Positions 11,104 to 20,158 of a DNA stretch of 64,000 bases are shown here, one piece after another. The stretch's first letter is position 1. Each line of letters opens with the position of its first letter. A model generated the notes under the pieces. That model was not told the origin of the DNA, searched no databases, and saw only the letters and a program-made list of their open reading frames with translations. The DNA is from Salipiger sp. IMCC34102 (lineage in GTDB: Bacteria > Pseudomonadota > Alphaproteobacteria > Rhodobacterales > Rhodobacteraceae), in assembly GCF_004145405.1 (NCBI RefSeq), contig NZ_SELQ01000007.1, positions 1 through 64,000 on the forward strand, written 5' to 3'. The position numbers were made by a program, and so were the translations under genes.

Positions 11104-11492
11104 CTCGAAGCTCCTGCTTGCGTTGGACCAAGGACCTGCAGTCTTGGACGACCGGTTTCAATAATACTTTGACAATTAAGACGGTTGTTCCCGATTGCAG
11201 TGTTGCGTGGAATGCAGTTCGCCGCGGTGATGTGCTTTCGGACTACCGTTTCGATCGGGTCGGGTTCTTGTATCTCCCTCCATCAGTTTGACCCTCTGCC
11301 CCTCAAACGACCAAGGACGCATAGGTTGCAAAGCGTGCCGCCCCCGTTATTGAGACACAGACCGAGAGGTTGCGGACATGCGTCCCATCGCAAGCCGACC
11401 CATCGTTCATCGTTGATGGGCGCAACCTCGGGCGCATTCGCCTGACGATGGTGCCATGGCGACCGCTCGCCGCAAAACGTGAGGACTTCACC
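11104..11492. other. Divergent intergenic region with promoters and a structured stretch
   Basis: This 389-bp stretch separates the leftward amino-acid transporter from the rightward Crp/Fnr gene. No gene was recognised in it. It contains an AT-rich patch near 11158-11185 that could hold promoter elements for the leftward operon. A nested inverted repeat at 11366-11429 is described separately. Confidence 0.4.
11366..11429 (+). other. Nested inverted repeat (possible structured leader or small RNA)
   Basis: GAGGTTGCG at 11366-11374 pairs perfectly with CGCAACCTC at 11421-11429. Inside, CCCATC at 11399-11404 pairs with GATGGG at 11415-11420, directly adjacent to the outer 3' arm. A second CCCATC at 11384-11389 could compete for the same partner, giving two alternative folds. 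It ends about 64 nt before the Crp/Fnr start. Function is unknown. Confidence 0.35.
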
Positions 11493-12203
11493 ATGGCGAA
11501 CTCCCGCCGGCTCGAAGCCAGCCTGTCGCGGCGTGCGGATTTATCCGCGACCGAGCGGACAGTTTTGCGCGAATTGCCGGTGACGCGAACGACGTATTCC
11601 GATGGAGCGTGCATCGTGTCCGAGGGTCCCACCCAGAACGGCAGTTGCCTACTGGTCGAGGGCATGGCGATGCGGGCGCACCGGGTCGGGCCGTCCGACC
11701 GGGTGATCAGCGCCCTGCACGTCCCGGGGGATTTCGTCGATCTCCATGCGTTCCTGCTGGATCACCTCGATCACGACATCCTCGCCGTCGGACCCTGCAC
11801 GATCGAGTTCATCTCCTCCGAACACCTGACGCAGATTACCCGCGATCACCCCAATCTGACGCGGCTACTGTGGTTGGATACGCTCATCGACGCCAAGATC
11901 CACCGCGTCTGGGTCGCCACGCGCAGTGCGTTGCGGGGCCCCCAGCGGGTCGGCCACCTTCTGTGCGAGTTGCACGCCCGGCTGGATGCGGTGGGGTTGG
12001 TCTCCTCGAACGGCTTTGCCATGCCGATCGACCAGCGCGGGTTGGCGAAGGTGCTGGGCTACTCGGTCGTCCATGTGAACCACGCGATCCGCGATTTGCG
12101 GGCGGATGGCTTGCTGGAGTGGGACCGGGGCCACGTGCGTCTGCCCGACCCGACCGGGCTGGCGCGTCACGTCCGGTTCGATCCGGCGTACCTCGAGCTG
12201 TGA
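11493..12203 (+). CDS. Crp/Fnr-family transcriptional regulator
   Basis: The start at 11493 (MANSRRLEASLSRRADLSA) follows a GTGAGGA ribosome site. The 236-residue protein has an N-terminal cyclic-nucleotide-binding-like barrel (YSDGACIVSEG, VPGDFVDLHAF) and a C-terminal winged helix. The recognition part reads PIDQRGLAKVLGYSVVHVNH, then AIRDLRADGLLE. No Cys cluster for a 4Fe-4S centre is visible, so it is not a classical oxygen-sensing Fnr. It lies directly upstream of the acyl-CoA dehydrogenase/PIG-L/methyltransferase/glycosyltransferase cluster and may control it; that link is inferred. Confidence 0.85.
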   Translation: MANSRRLEASLSRRADLSATERTVLRELPVTRTTYSDGACIVSEGPTQNGSCLLVEGMAMRAHRVGPSDRVISALHVPGDFVDLHAFLLDHLDHDILAVGPCTIEFISSEHLTQITRDHPNLTRLLWLDTLIDAKIHRVWVATRSALRGPQRVGHLLCELHARLDAVGLVSSNGFAMPIDQRGLAKVLGYSVVHVNHAIRDLRADGLLEWDRGHVRLPDPTGLARHVRFDPAYLEL

Positions 12204-12221: not shown

Positions 12222-12237
12222 GTTAAACAACTTTAAC
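12222..12237. promoter_or_regulatory. Inverted repeat GTTAAA-N4-TTTAAC upstream of the dehydrogenase cluster
   Basis: GTTAAACAACTTTAAC is a perfect 6-bp inverted repeat with a 4-nt spacer, 63 nt before the acyl-CoA dehydrogenase start and just after the Crp/Fnr stop. Spacing and symmetry fit a dimeric regulator such as Crp/Fnr proteins, but it is not a canonical Fnr or Crp box. The AT-rich stem is too weak for a terminator. Confidence 0.35.
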
Positions 12238-12299
12238 AAAAGGTTGCTGTTTTATCGCCGCGGCTAGCTCCACCGAGAAGCACTGGCGCGGAGACCGGA

Positions 12300-13448
12300 A
12301 TGGGCCGTCACGAAGGTGAACCGAATGCGCCGGGGGCCACCAGGCCCGATGTCGCGATCCAAGCCGTACTCGACGATCTGCGCGCGGGTGCCGATGCGGC
12401 GGCGCATAACTCGCCGGACCTTGGCGGCCCGATCGACCTGCTTGGGAAAACCGGCGTCCTGAAGTCCGTCCTGCCGCCGCCCGACGGGGTGGGGCTTGGC
12501 TGGACGCCCGGAGAGGGCAGGACGCTGTCCGACCTGTTGCGCCACGTGGGCGCCGCGGATCTTGCGCTGGCCCGCCTGCTGGAAGGGCACGTCAATGCCG
12601 CGATCCTAGTCGAGATCCATGGCGACGGCCCGGCGCGCGATGCGATGCGGGAGTCGGTGCGCGAGGGCGCGCTTCTCGGCGTCTGGGGCGCGGATGGGCC
12701 GGAGCCGCTGGAATGGGTCGACCGGGCGAAGGGGAGCATCTTGTTGAAGGGATCGAAAATCTTCGCCTCGGGATTGAGCCATGTCGATCTTGCTGTCGTG
12801 ACGGCCCGTTCGGCGGCAGGCGCGCCCGCGCGCATGTTCCTTGTGCCGGCGAACGATCCCGCGCGGCACGATCATGCATCCTGGACCGCCTCCGCAATGC
12901 GCGCCTCCCGCTCGGGCCGGTTCGATGCCACCGGTCTTGTCCTGGACGAGACCGGCTGTGTCGGCCCTGCCGGTGCCCTCATGACCGAACCGTGGTTCGA
13001 AGGGGGCGTCTGACGCTACTGCGCCGCATACGTAGGGGGTGCCGAGGGGCTGATTGCGCGCTGGACCGATCTTCTGCGACGCATGGGGCGCCTGGACGAC
13101 CCGATCCAGAGGGACCGGCTCGGTCGGGCGATGGCCGACGCCGTCGCGGCGCGCGCCGTGGTCGAGGCCGCAGCCCAAGCAGTGGAAGAGGCGCTTGACG
13201 CCCCGCCCGACCACGTGGAGCGTGCGGTCGCGCATGGCCTGATGGCCCGCGAAGCCGTGGAAGGGGCCTGTACGCGCATCCTAGCCCTTTGCGAGCGCAG
13301 ACTCGGCATGGCCGCCCATGATACCCGAGGCCCGGTCGATCAGATGCGGCGCGACCTGTCGCTGTTCCTGCGCCAGGCGGGACCGGACGCGAAACTCGAC
13401 CGGGCCTTGCGGACAGCCCAGGACGTCGGTCCGGGAGGTCTGCGATGA
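12300..13448 (+). pseudogene. Acyl-CoA dehydrogenase family gene with an in-frame TGA
   Basis: Start 12300 follows a GGAG ribosome site. The first part (237 codons) is acyl-CoA dehydrogenase-like: N-terminal helices, a middle domain with LLGVWGADGP and ILLKGSKIFASGLSHVDLAV. At 13011-13013 the codon after GGV is TGA, and the same frame continues as RYCAAYVGGAEGLIARW to a normal stop at 13446. Relatives commonly have Trp here, so TGG to TGA is the simplest explanation. The full frame would encode 382 residues. The final stop overlaps the next gene by 4 nt. It may be a recent pseudogene, a sequencing error, or, less likely, a readthrough gene. Confidence 0.75.
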
Positions 13449-14143
13449 ACGCTGGCTCGACCGATCTCCTGCTGGCCGAAACCCCCCTTCTGGTGCTCGC
13501 CCCACATCCCGACGACGAGTCGCTGGGGTGCGGCCTGCTGCTGGCCGAACGCTGGCAACGCGGATTGCCCTCGCACGTGGCTTGCCTGACGGACGGGGCC
13601 GCGTCGCATCCCGCCTCGCAAGAGTGGCCGGGGCCACGCCTTTCCAAGCTGCGCCGCGAGGAGTTATCGAAAGCGGTGGGCTGCCTCGGCGGCGACCCTG
13701 CGCGCGATATTACCTGGTTCGGCTACCCGGATGCCGCCTTGCACCGACTGCGCGCGCCGAAGGAGGATCTTGCCCGGGACCTCGGGGCGTTGATTGACCG
13801 GTTGAACGCCTCCACCGTTGTGACCGCGTCTTCCGACGATCCTCATTGCGACCATGTTGCCTGCGCTGCCGCGGCGCGTCAGGCCGTCGCAGAGCGCCCC
13901 GGGGTGAGCCTCTGGTCCTACGCGATCTGGTCGCGCTGGAACGGGTGGGCCGAAGGCCGCGAGGCGCCCGGGGCACGGTTGGACCTTCCCGAACGGCGCG
14001 ATGCCAAGAACGCCGCCGTCCGGGCCCATGGCAGCCAGTTGGGCCAGGTGGTTAGGGACGACCCCCAGGGCTTCGCCATGCCACCCGGCTTCGCCGCACG
14101 TTTTTGCGCCGAACCCGAGATCTACAAACGGGTGCAGCCGTGA
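13445..14143 (+). CDS. PIG-L family N-acetylglucosaminyl deacetylase-like protein
   Basis: This 232-residue protein has the family zinc motif APHPDDESLGCG (residues 17-28) and a distal HCDHVACA-type segment (DDPHCDHVACAAA) that completes the metal site. PIG-L/LmbE/MshB enzymes remove acetyl groups from N-acetyl amino sugars or related substrates. Its start overlaps the preceding dehydrogenase stop and its stop overlaps the methyltransferase start (GTGA), so expression is probably coupled. The substrate is not known; the adjacent glycosyltransferase suggests an amino-sugar conjugate. Confidence 0.87.
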   Translation: MNAGSTDLLLAETPLLVLAPHPDDESLGCGLLLAERWQRGLPSHVACLTDGAASHPASQEWPGPRLSKLRREELSKAVGCLGGDPARDITWFGYPDAALHRLRAPKEDLARDLGALIDRLNASTVVTASSDDPHCDHVACAAAARQAVAERPGVSLWSYAIWSRWNGWAEGREAPGARLDLPERRDAKNAAVRAHGSQLGQVVRDDPQGFAMPPGFAARFCAEPEIYKRVQP

Positions 14144-14721
14144 GGGCGGCGGATCTGGCGCATCTGCGCGGCCTTTACGCCGGGACGGACGATCCGTGGG
14201 ATTTCCGGGCCTCCCCTTACGAGGCCAAACGCTTTGCGGCGGTGGCCGAGGCATTGCCGCGCGAAAGCTATGCGGCAGCCCTCGAACTTGGCTGCGGCAA
14301 CGGTGAGCTGGCGCGACGGATCGCCCCGCGCTGCGGATCCTACACCGGACTCGACGCGGTTCCCGCAGCACTCGAGGCGGCCCGCAAGGCCGTTCCGGCG
14401 GGCTGCTTCGTCGAGGGGTTCCTGCCCTGCGCGCTTCCTGCCCCACCGCAGGACAGCGGCTACGACCTCATACTGCTGAGCGAGATCCTCTATTTCATGG
14501 GCCCTGCCGGCATCGCGGAGATTTCGCAGATGCTCGACCGGGACCATCCCGCGGCGGACGTGATCAGCGTGACGTGGCGCGGCGCGACCGGCCACGCGTT
14601 GAGCGGCGACGAGGCTCTGATCGCCTTCGCCGACGCGTCCCGACGCTCCAGTTGGACCAGTCGTCTGACGCAAGGATACCGGATCGCGGTCTTCTCACCT
14701 TTCCAGGGGTCGCAACCGTGA
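14140..14721 (+). CDS. NodS-like SAM-dependent methyltransferase
   Basis: A GTG start at 14140 overlaps the upstream stop. The 193-residue product has DDPWDFRASPYEAKRF at the N-terminus, as in the NodS family, followed by the SAM-binding motif ALELGCGNGELARRI and a second motif TGLDAVPAAL. NodS N-methylates the de-N-acetylated sugar of Nod factors. Here the gene follows a deacetylase and precedes a glycosyltransferase, which makes an amino-sugar substrate plausible. The family call is firm. The reaction partner is inferred. Confidence 0.83.
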   Translation: MRAADLAHLRGLYAGTDDPWDFRASPYEAKRFAAVAEALPRESYAAALELGCGNGELARRIAPRCGSYTGLDAVPAALEAARKAVPAGCFVEGFLPCALPAPPQDSGYDLILLSEILYFMGPAGIAEISQMLDRDHPAADVISVTWRGATGHALSGDEALIAFADASRRSSWTSRLTQGYRIAVFSPFQGSQP

Positions 14722-15581
14722 CGCAAGCGATCGTCGTCATCCCGGCGCGGAACGAGGCGGCTCTTCTCCCTGCTGCCCTCGCGTCGCTTCGGCAGGAAGG
14801 TCTGGCCGCGCTGGTCGTGGCCAACGGGTGCACCGATGCGACGGCCGCACTTGCCCGCGCGGCGGGCGTTGACGTTATAGAGACACCCGCCCTCGACGGG
14901 GGCGTGGGCGCGGCGCGGGCCATCGGTCTTGCAGCCGCCATGGACCGGGGTGCGGAAATTCTGTTCACGGTGGATGCCGATTGCAGGCTGGCCCCCGGCA
15001 CGGCCGCCACCGTCCGGCGCGCCCTCGGGCAGGCCGATGCGGTCTTCGGGCGGGTCGTGCCCAACGCGGCCGACTTCGCGTTGCTGCCCGCCGAGGTGCG
15101 GCGCCACGGTCTCGCCGAAGACCGGCGGGACGGTCTTCGGGCCCTGATCGCCTCCGCCGCAGCGGCCCGCCTGTGGGACCCGTTCCCGGCCCATGCCCAA
15201 AGTCCCGGCGCCCTGATCGCCTGGCGTGTCACGGCCTATCGCGCCACCGGCGGCATCGCACGGGTCGCCTGCCACGAGGACCGGCAGATGGCGGCCACGT
15301 TGGCCGTTCAAGGCTTGCGGGTCGCACGGCCCTGGGGGGCGGTCACGATTGCCTCCTGCCGGCTGACCGGCAGGGCACCCGGCGGAATGGCGGACACGAT
15401 CGCCCAGCGGACCCGCCTCGGCGCCCGTCTTGTCCGGGAAGCCGCGGACCTGGAACGCGAATGCGCTGAGCTCGAACAACGCCTGTCGGCGTTCATCCCC
15501 CGTGCCGATTGGCCGGACCTTCCAACCCTCTCTACCGAAGGAGACGAAAATGTTTCATCATTCCAGCAAGCTACAGTATGA
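14718..15581 (+). CDS. Family 2 glycosyltransferase
   Basis: A GTG start at 14718 overlaps the methyltransferase stop (GTGA). The N-terminus IVVIPARNEAALLPAAL and the acidic motif FTVDADCRL (a DxD equivalent near residue 87) define a GT-A fold, GT2-type enzyme; CHEDRQMA is the likely ED catalytic motif. No clear membrane segment is visible in the 287 residues, so it is probably cytosolic. Its 3' end overlaps the manganese catalase start by 32 nt in another frame. It is the last gene of a four-gene overlapping set. Confidence 0.82.
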   Translation: MTQAIVVIPARNEAALLPAALASLRQEGLAALVVANGCTDATAALARAAGVDVIETPALDGGVGAARAIGLAAAMDRGAEILFTVDADCRLAPGTAATVRRALGQADAVFGRVVPNAADFALLPAEVRRHGLAEDRRDGLRALIASAAAARLWDPFPAHAQSPGALIAWRVTAYRATGGIARVACHEDRQMAATLAVQGLRVARPWGAVTIASCRLTGRAPGGMADTIAQRTRLGARLVREAADLERECAELEQRLSAFIPRADWPDLPTLSTEGDENVSSFQQATV

Positions 15582-16375
15582 GGTTCGGGTCGACACGCCC
15601 GATCCGCAATTCGCCAAGTTCCTGCAGCAGGCCATCGGCGGGGTCGAGGGCGAGATCCGCGTCGCCATGCAGTATTTCTTCCAGGCCATGGGGGCGCGCG
15701 GCGACGCGAAATACCGCGACATGCCGATGATGACCGCCACGGAGGAGCTCAGTCACATCGAGTTCCTCGGCCATGCGGTCGCGCTCAACCTCGAAGGCGC
15801 GCCGGTCTCGGTCCAGGAAGAGGCTGCCAAGGATCCGGTCGTGAACGCGATCATGGGCGGTGCGAACCCGCGCCACATCCTGTCCTCGGGGCTGTCGGCG
15901 ATGCCCGTGAACTCCAACGGCGTGCCCTTCGCACATGAGCCACGTCTACGCCACCGGCAACCTTGCCGCGGACATTATGGCCAACGCCACGGCCGAGAGC
16001 GGCGGCCGCGTGTTGGCCTCCCGGCTTTACAACATGACCGAGGACAAGGGCATGAAGGACATGCTGTCGTTCCTCATCGCGCGCGACACGATGCACCAGC
16101 AGCAATGGCTCGCGGTGATCGAGGAGCTCGGCGGCTGGGAGACGCAGCTGCCGATCCCGAACTCCACCCCCAAGGAGCACGAGGCGACCGAGCACAGCTA
16201 CTACTTCCTCAACACCTCGCTCGACGAGCCGACGCCCGAAGGGCGCTGGACCTCCGGCCCCTCGCTCGACGGGCGCGCCGAGTTCTCTGCCAAGGACCGG
16301 GTGGAGCCGCTGGGCCAGAAGCCCGACCTGGGCAAGGCGAAGCCCGGCAGCGGCACGCAGTCGGAACAGCAGTGA
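15550..16375 (+). pseudogene. Manganese (non-haem) catalase, frameshifted
   Basis: Translation from 15550 (MFHHSSKLQYEVRVDTPDP) gives a Mn-catalase ferritin-like domain with ligand helices EGEIRVAMQYFFQAMG and ATEELSHIEFLGHA. After NSNGVPF the frame breaks: the sequence reads ttcgcacatgagc where relatives have Phe-Asp-Met-Ser. Removing one C at about 15932 restores DMSHVYATGNLAADIMAN, and the frame runs to 16375 through the second-ligand helix with DTMHQQQWLAVIEELGG. Both halves are otherwise well preserved, so this is a recent lesion or a sequencing error. The enzyme would detoxify hydrogen peroxide. Confidence 0.8.
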
Positions 16376-16465: not shown

Positions 16466-17447
16466 ATGTCTGAAACCTACCTCACCGATCGGTCGCACGA
16501 TCGACGCTCCACGTTATCAGCGGTCATCGTCGGCGCGATCGTGGCCCTTGGCCTGATGGTCATGTTTACCCTTCTGGGGCTTTCGATCGGGATCGCCAGT
16601 CTCGAAGCCGTCGGCGAAGGGCTGGGGATCGGGGCTGCACTTTACATCGTCGTGACCCAGCTGATCTCGCTCGCGGTCGGCGGTTTCGCCGCGGCGCGCT
16701 TCGCCGCCTCGCACGACACCATCTCCGCGGCCCTTGCAGGCGCCGCCGTCTGGTCGCTGACCACGGTCATCGTGGCGTTCGGCGGGTTGAACACGGGCAC
16801 CGCCGCCATCAGTTCTGCCACCTCGCTCGTCAGCCAGACCGCGCAGACGACGGCCAATGCCGCGCAAGCGATCACGCCGGACAACATCTCGCTGCCCGAT
16901 TTCTCTCAGATCGCGGGAAATCTCTCGCTCGCGGATCTGCCGCCGCAGGTTCAAACCGCCCTGGAAAACGCCGATGTCACACCGGCGCAGCTGCGCACCG
17001 AAGCGCGAGAGGCCTTCCGAAACGTCGTCAGCCAGCAGGAAATGGCGCGCGCCCGCACGATCCTGACGAACACGCTAGGCGACGTCGCCGCGAGCCCGGG
17101 CTCGCTTGGCGAAGAGGTGAACGCGGCCCTGGACCAGCTGATCGGTGGCGAGAACGCCGTCTTCAGCGAAGAGGACATCACCGAGGCCACCAATACGCTT
17201 CCAGGCGCGGCTGGGTATCTCCGACAGTCAGGCCCAGCAGATCGCCGACACGATCCGCGCGAGCTTTGACGAAGCGGTCGAAACCGTGCGCCAGACGGTC
17301 GATGAGTTGCAGCAGCAGCTTGTCGAGACGGTGAACGCCGTGCAAGGCGCGGTGTCCTCCGCCGCCTTCTGGCTGTTCCTCGCGTCATTGCTGGGGCTGG
17401 GGGCCGCCGCGGGGGCCGGTGTCGCCGCGCGTCGCGTCCGGATCTGA
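16466..17447 (+). pseudogene. Membrane protein of unknown function, frameshifted
   Basis: The frame from 16466 (MSETYLTDRSHDRRSTLSA) encodes three hydrophobic segments (about residues 18-40, 50-75 and 85-110), then a helical soluble stretch. Near 17201 an extra C shifts the frame: one frame runs on to a stop at 17269, while another continues with ARLGISDSQAQQIADTIRA, FDEAVETVRQTVDELQQQ and a C-terminal membrane helix to 17447. Joined, the protein would be about 326 residues, with membrane segments at both ends and a coiled-coil-like middle. No known function was recognised. It follows the Mn catalase terminator and precedes a DUF421 gene. Confidence 0.6.
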
Positions 17448-17563
17448 CCGGCTGTAGGGGCAGCAGGCTTTCGTCGGCCCGATGAGACCTGCCGCCCCGA
17501 AACGACAGGCGGTTCCCCGGCGTGGTGCCCGGGGCCGCATATCCTGACCTGAAAGATATTCGA

Positions 17564-18118
17564 ATGCTTTTCGACAATGAGGGGGCCCTGTGGCAGGTCC
17601 CCGCATCCGCAATCGTGGGCTTTGCGGTCCTGCTTCTCCTGCTGCGGATCTCCGGCAAGCGGACGGTTGCCAAGTTCAACATGTATGACCTGATCCTGAC
17701 CTTCACGGTCGGCTCGATCCTGTCGTCCTTCATCGTCCTGGAATCGGTTCAGTTCGTCGACGCCTTGCTCGGTCTCGCGTCGGTCATCGCGGTGGACTAC
17801 GTCATCTCGTGGGCCGTCATGCGATCGGACCGCGTGCGGTCCTGGGTGAAGGCGAACCCGACCCTTCTCGTCTTCAACGGTGACATGCAGCGCGCCAACA
17901 TGCGCAAGGAACGGATCGTCGAGGACGAAGTGCTGATGTTCATGCGGCAAAAAGGGATCGACCGTATATCTCGCGTGAAGGCGATGATCCTTGAGCCTGC
18001 CGGAGATATCTCGGTCTTCACCACGGACGAGGATGAGGACGAGGACGAGGATCACGACATGTCGAAGTCGCTGCGCCGGTCCGGCGTAAATATTCCGAAG
18101 AGCGGCAGTGACGCGTGA
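17564..18118 (+). CDS. DUF421 (YetF-like) membrane protein
   Basis: The chosen ATG at 17564 gives MLFDNEGALWQVPASAIVG. Three membrane segments follow in the first 90 residues (AIVGFAVLLLLLRISGKRT, the FNMYDLILTFTVGSILSS segment that marks DUF421, and a third near ALLGLASVIAVDYVIS). A soluble C-terminal domain ends in a run of alternating Asp/Glu (EDEDEDED). Related Bacillus YetF proteins are linked to spores and stress, but a biochemical role is not established. An upstream GTG at 17522 is a weaker start. Its place after the catalase and membrane gene suggests an envelope or stress role. Confidence 0.75.
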   Translation: MLFDNEGALWQVPASAIVGFAVLLLLLRISGKRTVAKFNMYDLILTFTVGSILSSFIVLESVQFVDALLGLASVIAVDYVISWAVMRSDRVRSWVKANPTLLVFNGDMQRANMRKERIVEDEVLMFMRQKGIDRISRVKAMILEPAGDISVFTTDEDEDEDEDHDMSKSLRRSGVNIPKSGSDA

Positions 18119-19359: not shown

Positions 19360-19785
19360 TTATCCTTTCACGGCGCCGGAGGTCATGCCCGCGACGATCT
19401 GACGGTTGAAGAAGACGAACACCAGCAAGGGCGGGATCGTGATGAGCAGGATGTTCATGAACAGCAGGTTGAGCTGGGAGGTGAACTGGCTCTGGAAGTT
19501 GTAGAGCGTGAGCTGCACCGTGATGTTCTCGGCCCCCGGCAGGTAGTAGAGCGGGTGGGTGAAGTCGTTGAAGATGGTGATCGACTGCACGACGATCACG
19601 GTCAGCGTCACCGGCTTCAGCAGCGGCAGGATCACCCGGAAGAAGACCTGCAGCGGCGTGGCCCCGTCGACGATGGCCGCCTCGTCCAGGTCCCGCGGGA
19701 TCGACGAGATGAAGGCCCGGAACAGCAGGATGCAGAACGACAGACCATAGGCCACCTGGATCAGGATCATCCCGTGGATCGGGAG
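19360..19785 (-). pseudogene. CUT1-type sugar ABC permease, C-terminal remnant
   Basis: Homology to MalG/UgpE-type permeases starts abruptly near 19785 with HGMILIQVAYGLSFCILLF and continues through the EAA loop RDLDEAAIVDGATPLQVFF to the normal C-terminus AGMTSGAVKG. The first membrane helices and the proper start are absent; the ORF extends upstream only into unrelated sequence that belongs to a LacI gene on the other strand. It is 3 nt from the ATPase gene. The truncation marks one side of a deletion junction. Confidence 0.75.
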
Positions 19786-20038
19786 CGATCTGGACGGTGT
19801 CGATCTGCTGGGGGCTACCCGCAAGCGCGGGTTGCGCGTGCCCGAGGATCTGGCGCTCGTCTCCTACGACAACAATGCCATGGCGCGCCTGCCGATGGTG
19901 GATCTGTCCAGCGTGGACCGGCACGGAGAGGAGATCGGCCGCCGCGCCGCCGCCGCCCTGCTCTCGCCGCTGGAGGGCCGGCGCGAGGCGAGCCACGATC
20001 TGGTCGCGCCGGACCTGGTGCTGCGCTCAAGCTGCTGA
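19781..20038 (+). pseudogene. LacI-family regulator, C-terminal remnant
   Basis: The plus frame from about 19781 reads GSDLDGVDLLGATRKRGLRV, then PEDLALVSYDNNAMARL, and ends DLVLRSSC. This is the C-terminal end of a LacI-type sugar-sensing domain. The DNA-binding domain and most of the effector domain are missing. It is fused head-on to the beheaded permease gene, so both lost their N-termini in one event. Confidence 0.75.
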
Positions 20039-20120
20039 CGGGGGGCCAGGACTCCCTGCCCGCTTGACGGCTGCGGCGGGTCGCAGGCGCGACGCCGGGG
20101 CAACCCTCTTCGGTGCCAAA

Positions 20121-20158
20121 GTTATATGGACAAAACCGTCAAAAAATTGAAATATAAC
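20121..20158. promoter_or_regulatory. Inverted repeat GTTATAT/ATATAAC upstream of the KaiC-like gene
   Basis: GTTATAT at 20121-20127 and ATATAAC at 20152-20158 form 7-bp arms around an A-rich spacer, 27 nt before the KaiC-like start. The AT-rich patch stands out from the surrounding GC-rich DNA and probably contains the promoter. Any regulatory role is inferred. Confidence 0.3.

Follow-up and report, generated by a model that had tools for sequence, protein, structure and literature searches.

The 64,000-nucleotide stretch of the Salipiger sp. IMCC34102 genome analysed here (assembly GCF_004145405.1, contig NZ_SELQ01000007.1; hereafter the window) carries four same-strand genes at positions 12300-15581, encoding a flavoprotein of the acyl-CoA dehydrogenase fold (gene 1), a PIG-L family de-N-acetylase, a NodS-related methyltransferase dependent on S-adenosylmethionine (SAM) and a family-2 glycosyltransferase (GT2). 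This set is no chance grouping, and its status as a genetic unit has good support. As to its function, we propose a translationally coupled cassette of the general stress response whose enzymes transfer, de-N-acetylate, methylate and oxidise an amino-sugar conjugate, a reading for which we regard the balance as about even. The recurrence of these coupled enzymes, in about 3.3 kb of DNA, near stress genes in four phyla suggests that the hosts have a small molecule or glycoconjugate in common, and as the cassette is short enough to be deleted or expressed as a whole, its product can be searched for directly. No description of the cassette was found among the matches listed in a search of open-licence papers, and the accessible parts of PMC8092242 contain nothing on it. 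In the window, the four genes and the fifth that follows them in this clade are arranged as follows:

12300..13448, + strand: gene 1, acyl-CoA-dehydrogenase-fold flavoprotein, interrupted by a TGA at 13011-13013
13445..14143, + strand: gene 2, PIG-L family de-N-acetylase, metal motif intact (PF02585, 97.8 bits)
14140..14721, + strand: gene 3, NodS-related SAM-dependent methyltransferase, GTG start (PF05401, 50.1 bits)
14718..15581, + strand: gene 4, GT2, GTG start, DxD and ED motifs intact (PF00535, 44 bits)
15550..16375, + strand: gene 5, Mn catalase, one-base frameshift near 15.93 kb (PF05067, two pieces in different frames)

The junctions of the four genes overlap as ATGA at 13445, GTGA at 14140 and GTGA at 14718, just as the original prediction, made from the sequence alone, had described them. 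That prediction took the operon as uninterrupted, however, and missed the TGA in gene 1.

The genetic unit was assessed in 114 loci, which were all found through a gene-1 homologue and among which related loci were counted as independent. Eight of them come from a survey of the family and from the own genome (L024 and L025 being halves of one cluster), 78 from the 80 best among 394 relatives in named genomes (L034 and L110 were dropped as repeats), 20 from the 33 other genomes with gene 1 in a phylum survey, and eight from 43 plasmid records. All four genes lie together within 3.8 kb in 97 of these loci, which belong to Pseudomonadota, Bacteroidota, Deinococcota and one cyanobacterium; the families are thus regular neighbours outside the window, and the expectation that the four act as one unit is borne out. 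One further locus (L160) has the four genes as well, with a weak PIG-L match. Gene order varies: GT2-gene 1-PIG-L-methyltransferase occurs 50 times, gene 1-PIG-L-methyltransferase-GT2 28 times, GT2 stands on the other strand in 18 cases, and one locus has another order. Stop and start codons overlap as NTGA at 73 of 100 gene 1-PIG-L junctions, 54 of 99 PIG-L-methyltransferase junctions, 23 of 30 methyltransferase-GT2 junctions and 23 of 52 GT2-gene 1 junctions, and fusions exist of PIG-L with the methyltransferase (three) and of the methyltransferase with gene 1 (one). The four proteins also co-diverge: over 86 cassettes their distances correlate at 0.74-0.85, with permutations (300 per pair) reaching at most 0.14, although shared species history contributes to these correlations.

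Nine Methylobacterium-type loci are without PIG-L (L074-L076, L078, L094, L104, L108, L113 and L163). A PIG-L of the same family is encoded elsewhere in all five such genomes that were searched (those of L075, L078, L104 and L113, and G381, the genome of L163), and in G381 some 3 kb separate it from a cassette-type GT2. This stretch of G381 (L186, 7281-12863) places PIG-L and GT2 beside two more glycosyltransferase-like genes, away from gene 1 and the methyltransferase. Additional constant partners were also considered: a glycoside hydrolase family 1 (GH1) protein, a UDP-galactopyranose mutase and a family-4 glycosyltransferase (GT4) of Deinococcus AJ005 were rejected, as they occur in at most two of the 117 sequences searched, that of AJ005 included. 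An oxidoreductase of the Gfo/Idh/MocA type, 46-49% identical, recurs in four loci of unrelated hosts (L072, L094, L165 and L168).

The cassette is widely scattered. A search of the family with PIG-L gave matches at E <= 2e-31 in seven of 100 genomes, own included, and their loci hold the four genes; in one of the genomes, G066, the cluster is divided between two contigs. The alignment-based scan of named genomes with gene 1 returned the 394 relatives mentioned above, and hosts among the best 80 of these are Palleronia, Fulvimarina, Gluconacetobacter, relatives of Erythrobacter, Methylobacterium, Ancylobacter, Roseomonas, Salipiger, Hymenobacter, Advenella and others. In the phylum survey, 34 of 398 genomes matched gene 1 at 1e-20, own included, and 15 of the 20 other genomes fetched have all four genes, one more having a weak PIG-L match. 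Among the 43 plasmid records with gene 1, six are from Deinococcus and one is from Nostoc; eight were inspected, and the Nostoc stretch, which has no gene table, contains all four genes by profile. A survey of the class with GT2 at 1e-15, which found one genome besides our own among 289, is not used as a rate because a maximum of eight candidates was scored per genome. Two Deinococcus gene-1 proteins (L164, 6672-9032; L165, 6708-8948) carry about 400 extra N-terminal residues; this extension gave no Pfam match in the one of the two that was scanned and no PDB match at 0.01.

The Pfam matches of gene 1 are a weak one to the acyl-CoA dehydrogenase middle domain (22.8 bits, cut-off 33.3) and one to the C-terminal type-2 domain (26.9 bits, cut-off 22.7). 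A profile search of the PDB ranked the monooxygenases DszC (1.4e-29), TdsC (5e-26) and MsuC (2.4e-23) at the top, with acyl-CoA dehydrogenases following from 3.1e-19, KijD3 at 2.5e-18 and two nitrososynthases at 1.1e-14 and 2.3e-14. With the model of the read-through protein (predicted local distance difference test score, pLDDT, 94.2), monooxygenases or sugar N-oxygenases filled almost all of the top 39 Foldseek rows, headed by TdsC, DszC, MAB_4123, DnmZ, KijD3 and MsuC, and a single row was titled putative acyl-CoA dehydrogenase. The active site says more: acyl-CoA dehydrogenases use a glutamate of the C-terminal domain as catalytic residue. The corresponding segment of a canonical dehydrogenase from the same genome (L190) reads RDLRVHQILEGT, whereas gene 1 has RDLxx[YF]LRQ or a close variant; glutamine occupies the position of the catalytic glutamate in 69 of 69 gene-1 sequences and neither candidate column contains a glutamate, in a comparison that uses L190 as its single canonical sequence (one of five canonical dehydrogenase loci gave the motif frame, and the other four were left unused). 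EG[TS] strings near the C-terminus of three of the 69 sequences lie 18-19 residues before the glutamine and thus off the catalytic position. Judged by sequence and predicted fold, gene 1 does not encode a normal acyl-CoA dehydrogenase, and among solved structures flavin monooxygenases are the closest to it. The original prediction of an acyl-CoA dehydrogenase-like protein is upheld for the fold alone, and our results suggest that gene 1 is misnamed when it is annotated, as is usual, as 'acyl-CoA dehydrogenase'.

Group D flavin monooxygenases have the acyl-CoA-dehydrogenase fold and include N-hydroxylases, as described in the accessible part of PMC6165268. The gene-1 protein shares this fold with DszC/TdsC and MsuC and with the amino-sugar N-oxygenases KijD3 and DnmZ, which are its best matches by sequence and by Foldseek, but identity over the fold is about 17-19%, and gene 1 is best called a candidate member of the group. 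It falls short of the DszC equivalog NF043015 (cut-off 850), with which the part before the TGA scores 24.2 bits. A different assignment would follow if gene 1 were a true dehydrogenase acting on acyl groups bound to CoA or a carrier, the set then adding or altering a lipid-linked amino-sugar in the envelope. Structural comparison with VIA-align separates the two enzyme types only slightly (Z 38.8 for DszC vs 37.3 for dehydrogenases), several glycosyltransferases adjoin some of the loci, and a DUF421 membrane gene lies near 17 of 104, all of which would suit an envelope glycolipid pathway. The invariant glutamine, the lack of glutamate in the next column as well, and the first rank of monooxygenases in both searches speak for a different enzyme, and we consider such a pathway unlikely.

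The PIG-L protein exceeds the PF02585 cut-off of 28.2 by a wide margin, and its metal motif HPDDE ... HxDH is invariant in 26 of 26 sequences. Its closest solved structures are diacetylchitobiose deacetylases, followed by deacetylases of the bacillithiol type and of glycopeptides; because these best relatives deacetylate N-acyl glucosamine units, the target is likely to be the amine of a unit of the N-acetylglucosamine type. Family and metal motif are common to the cassette protein, diacetylchitobiose deacetylase, BshB and MshB. A redox buffer related to mycothiol or bacillithiol, with PIG-L freeing an amine for later conjugation, is one alternative reading. The neighbouring stress genes would fit a sugar-thiol of this kind, as would a score of 66.7 bits with the BshB2 model TIGR04000. 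That score is far under the cut-off of 195.25, however, and those with BshB1 and MshB are weaker and also below their equivalog cut-offs. The glycosyltransferases of the thiol pathways, MshA and BshA, are GT4 enzymes, whereas that of the cassette is a GT2, and no recurring ligase gene was seen on inspection by eye of the families present in at least four loci. We hold a sugar-thiol to be very improbable.

The methyltransferase belongs to the NodS family of Pfam (PF05401, cut-off 24), and by profile its closest structures are PDB 4isc (2.3e-55) and then NodS itself (3ofj, 2.2e-29). From a NodS-like methyltransferase with GT2 and a deacetylase alongside, the original prediction had drawn a parallel to the NodC/NodB/NodS logic. 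A lipochitooligosaccharide signal resembling a Nod factor is a further alternative reading. The family assignment stands, as does the use of a PIG-L protein in place of NodB. Nod chemistry does not follow from it, and the parallel is reduced to an analogy: the cassette protein is not the NodS equivalog, reaching 53.9 bits of the 300 required by NF041650, it has no nod context, the deacetylase is not of the NodB type, and Deinococcus, Hymenobacter, Nostoc and acetic acid bacteria are among the hosts. A signal of this kind is extremely unlikely, and a Nod-factor operon proper was rejected on the family cut-offs and the host range. In the GT2 protein (model pLDDT 91.6), D86 and D88 of the DxD motif and E187 and D188 of the ED motif are invariant in 62 of 62 sequences; neither VIA-align nor the fold search singled out a subfamily.

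Linking the cassettes with information about their genetic environment revealed an enrichment of stress-associated neighbours. When the 104 loci that span 10 kb or more (16 kb on average; L024 and shorter loci were left out) are compared with 20 control stretches of 17 kb, a catalase is encoded in 39 vs one, DUF421 in 17 vs none, and any of nine stress-associated families (two catalases, DUF421, LigD, Ku, DUF892, SRPBCC, YihY and Zn-alcohol dehydrogenase) in 63 vs two, a contrast that we take as indicative. The claim that the cassette always lies near oxidative-stress genes can thus be kept in the weaker form of often; genes for DNA repair, like catalases, are frequent beside it. An EcfG-type motif (GGAAC-N16-18-NGTT) is present upstream of 23 of the 114 cassette loci, which are represented by 132 promoter regions, compared with three of 247 control-stretch genes and 28 of the 913 remaining genes in these loci, and the own genome has a gene for NepR. 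Genes for catalases, Ku, GlgX and a Zn-alcohol dehydrogenase are EcfG-dependent in Sphingomonas melonis Fr1 (PMC6599016, accessible passages), and these same families also adjoin the cassette, which gives its loci a likeness to the EcfG stress islands of Alphaproteobacteria. On the other hand, the cassette is not named in those passages on S. melonis, and many of its hosts are not Alphaproteobacteria. In L189 (genome G669), the cassette adjoins genes resembling a glycogen-debranching enzyme and a maltooligosyl-trehalose synthase.

In the general-stress cassette that we propose, GT2 would place an N-acetylated sugar on an acceptor and the PIG-L enzyme would strip the acetyl group and so free the amine. 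The NodS relative would then methylate the product, most simply at the freed amine, and gene 1, with its fold devoid of the dehydrogenase's catalytic glutamate, would oxidise it using reduced flavin and oxygen. The Mn catalase is coupled to the four as a fifth gene in Palleronia, Fulvimarina and the Salipiger sp. IMCC34102 genome; its overlap with GT2 is exactly 32 bp in the window copy as well as in all five relatives checked from the Palleronia-Fulvimarina set (L024, L035-L038). Some of the host genera tolerate desiccation and radiation. PIG-L, the NodS relative and a KijD3-like gene 1 could together yield an N-methylated and N-oxidised, hydroxylamine-type amino-sugar conjugate that serves stressed, dried or irradiated cells of Pseudomonadota, Deinococcus, Hymenobacter and Nostoc as a radical-scavenging protectant, a specific proposal that we regard as improbable as it stands.

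Several observations weigh against the stress-cassette reading. One to three of the genes are missing nearby in 16 of the 114 loci, some of which lie at contig ends, and the plasmid locus of Deinococcus proteolyticus has gene 1 and PIG-L only. No catalase is encoded in 65 of the 104 loci, and the contrast in stress neighbours is indicative because the control set is small and the profiles derive from the very loci that they were used to scan. The EcfG-type motif is absent upstream of 91 of the 114 loci, the window copy among them. For gene 1, to the slight structural separation from dehydrogenases must be added that no flavin reductase was recognised by eye among the families present in at least four loci. 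Finally, the substrates of the cassette, the order of the steps, the product and the protective role are what we infer.

The window copy itself is damaged. The in-frame TGA at 13011-13013 of gene 1 stands where five of five close relatives compared have tryptophan, and in the Mn catalase one extra base near 15.93 kb shifts the frame. Behind the TGA, gene 1 is 79-86% identical to its relatives, which among themselves share 76-91%; because identity there is on a par with that of the relatives, the break is either of recent date or an artefact of sequencing. That both breaks are errors of sequencing or assembly, with the operon intact, would agree with this degree of conservation and with the single-base size of both events. 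On the other side stand the occurrence of two lesions inside 3 kb, the position of the extra base outside any homopolymer run, and the somewhat lower conservation of gene 1 before the TGA (65-73% identity to relatives, compared with 71-89% among them). Pieces at 19360-20150 that by eye resemble a truncated ATP-binding cassette (ABC) permease and the terminal part of a LacI-type regulator suggest in addition a scarred, decaying stretch. We are therefore doubtful that errors explain both breaks. With gene 1 and the catalase interrupted, the window copy probably lacks the full pathway and does not make the full product, which a second copy could make.

This second cassette lies on contig C4 of the same genome (L023, 8164-11317; genome G000, 46 contigs, completeness 100), contains all four genes with gene 1 unbroken, and is preceded by two EcfG-type motif matches. 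GT2 and PIG-L of the two copies are 47% and 51% identical, respectively. For all four proteins, the nearest relative of the second copy is L026, whereas the five nearest of the window copy are the Palleronia-Fulvimarina set, one uncultured member of the Rhodobacteraceae included; the two copies therefore stem from different branches. By eye, the second copy is flanked by an istA/istB-like pair and an IS5-like transposase.

Further features surround the window copy:

11493..12203, + strand: CRP/FNR-type regulator gene (HTH_Crp_2 45.2 bits, cut-off 27; cNMP_binding 27.3 bits, cut-off 27.5)
12222..12237, no strand assigned: inverted repeat with arms of 5-6 bases, a candidate regulator site
17522..18118, + strand: DUF421 (YetF) membrane gene, a frequent neighbour (PF04239, 59.5 bits)

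A Mn catalase and a membrane gene had been predicted downstream of the cassette, and both are present, the former frameshifted. Between them, at 16466-17447, lies a frame for a membrane protein that near 17.2 kb apparently carries on in a different frame and is possibly a third broken gene; no match to it was found in the loci of the relatives. An anti-phage system was considered and rejected, as the only PADLOC match among the four genes was a weak one, of the methyltransferase to mads_2 (27.4 bits). The start of the CRP/FNR-type regulator gene at 11493 was picked by comparison, its open frame beginning at 11370, and the gene takes an equal position upstream of the cassette in L025 and L035-L038. 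The inverted repeat before gene 1 has a similar form in L025, L038 has a different repeat and L035-L037 have none, so that it is not kept across the clade. A block before gene 1 with the elements TAAAC..., AAGSTTG and GGCTA[GT]CT (12222-12290 in the window) is conserved in L025 and L035-L038, and it is possible that this block is a promoter unlike the EcfG motif.

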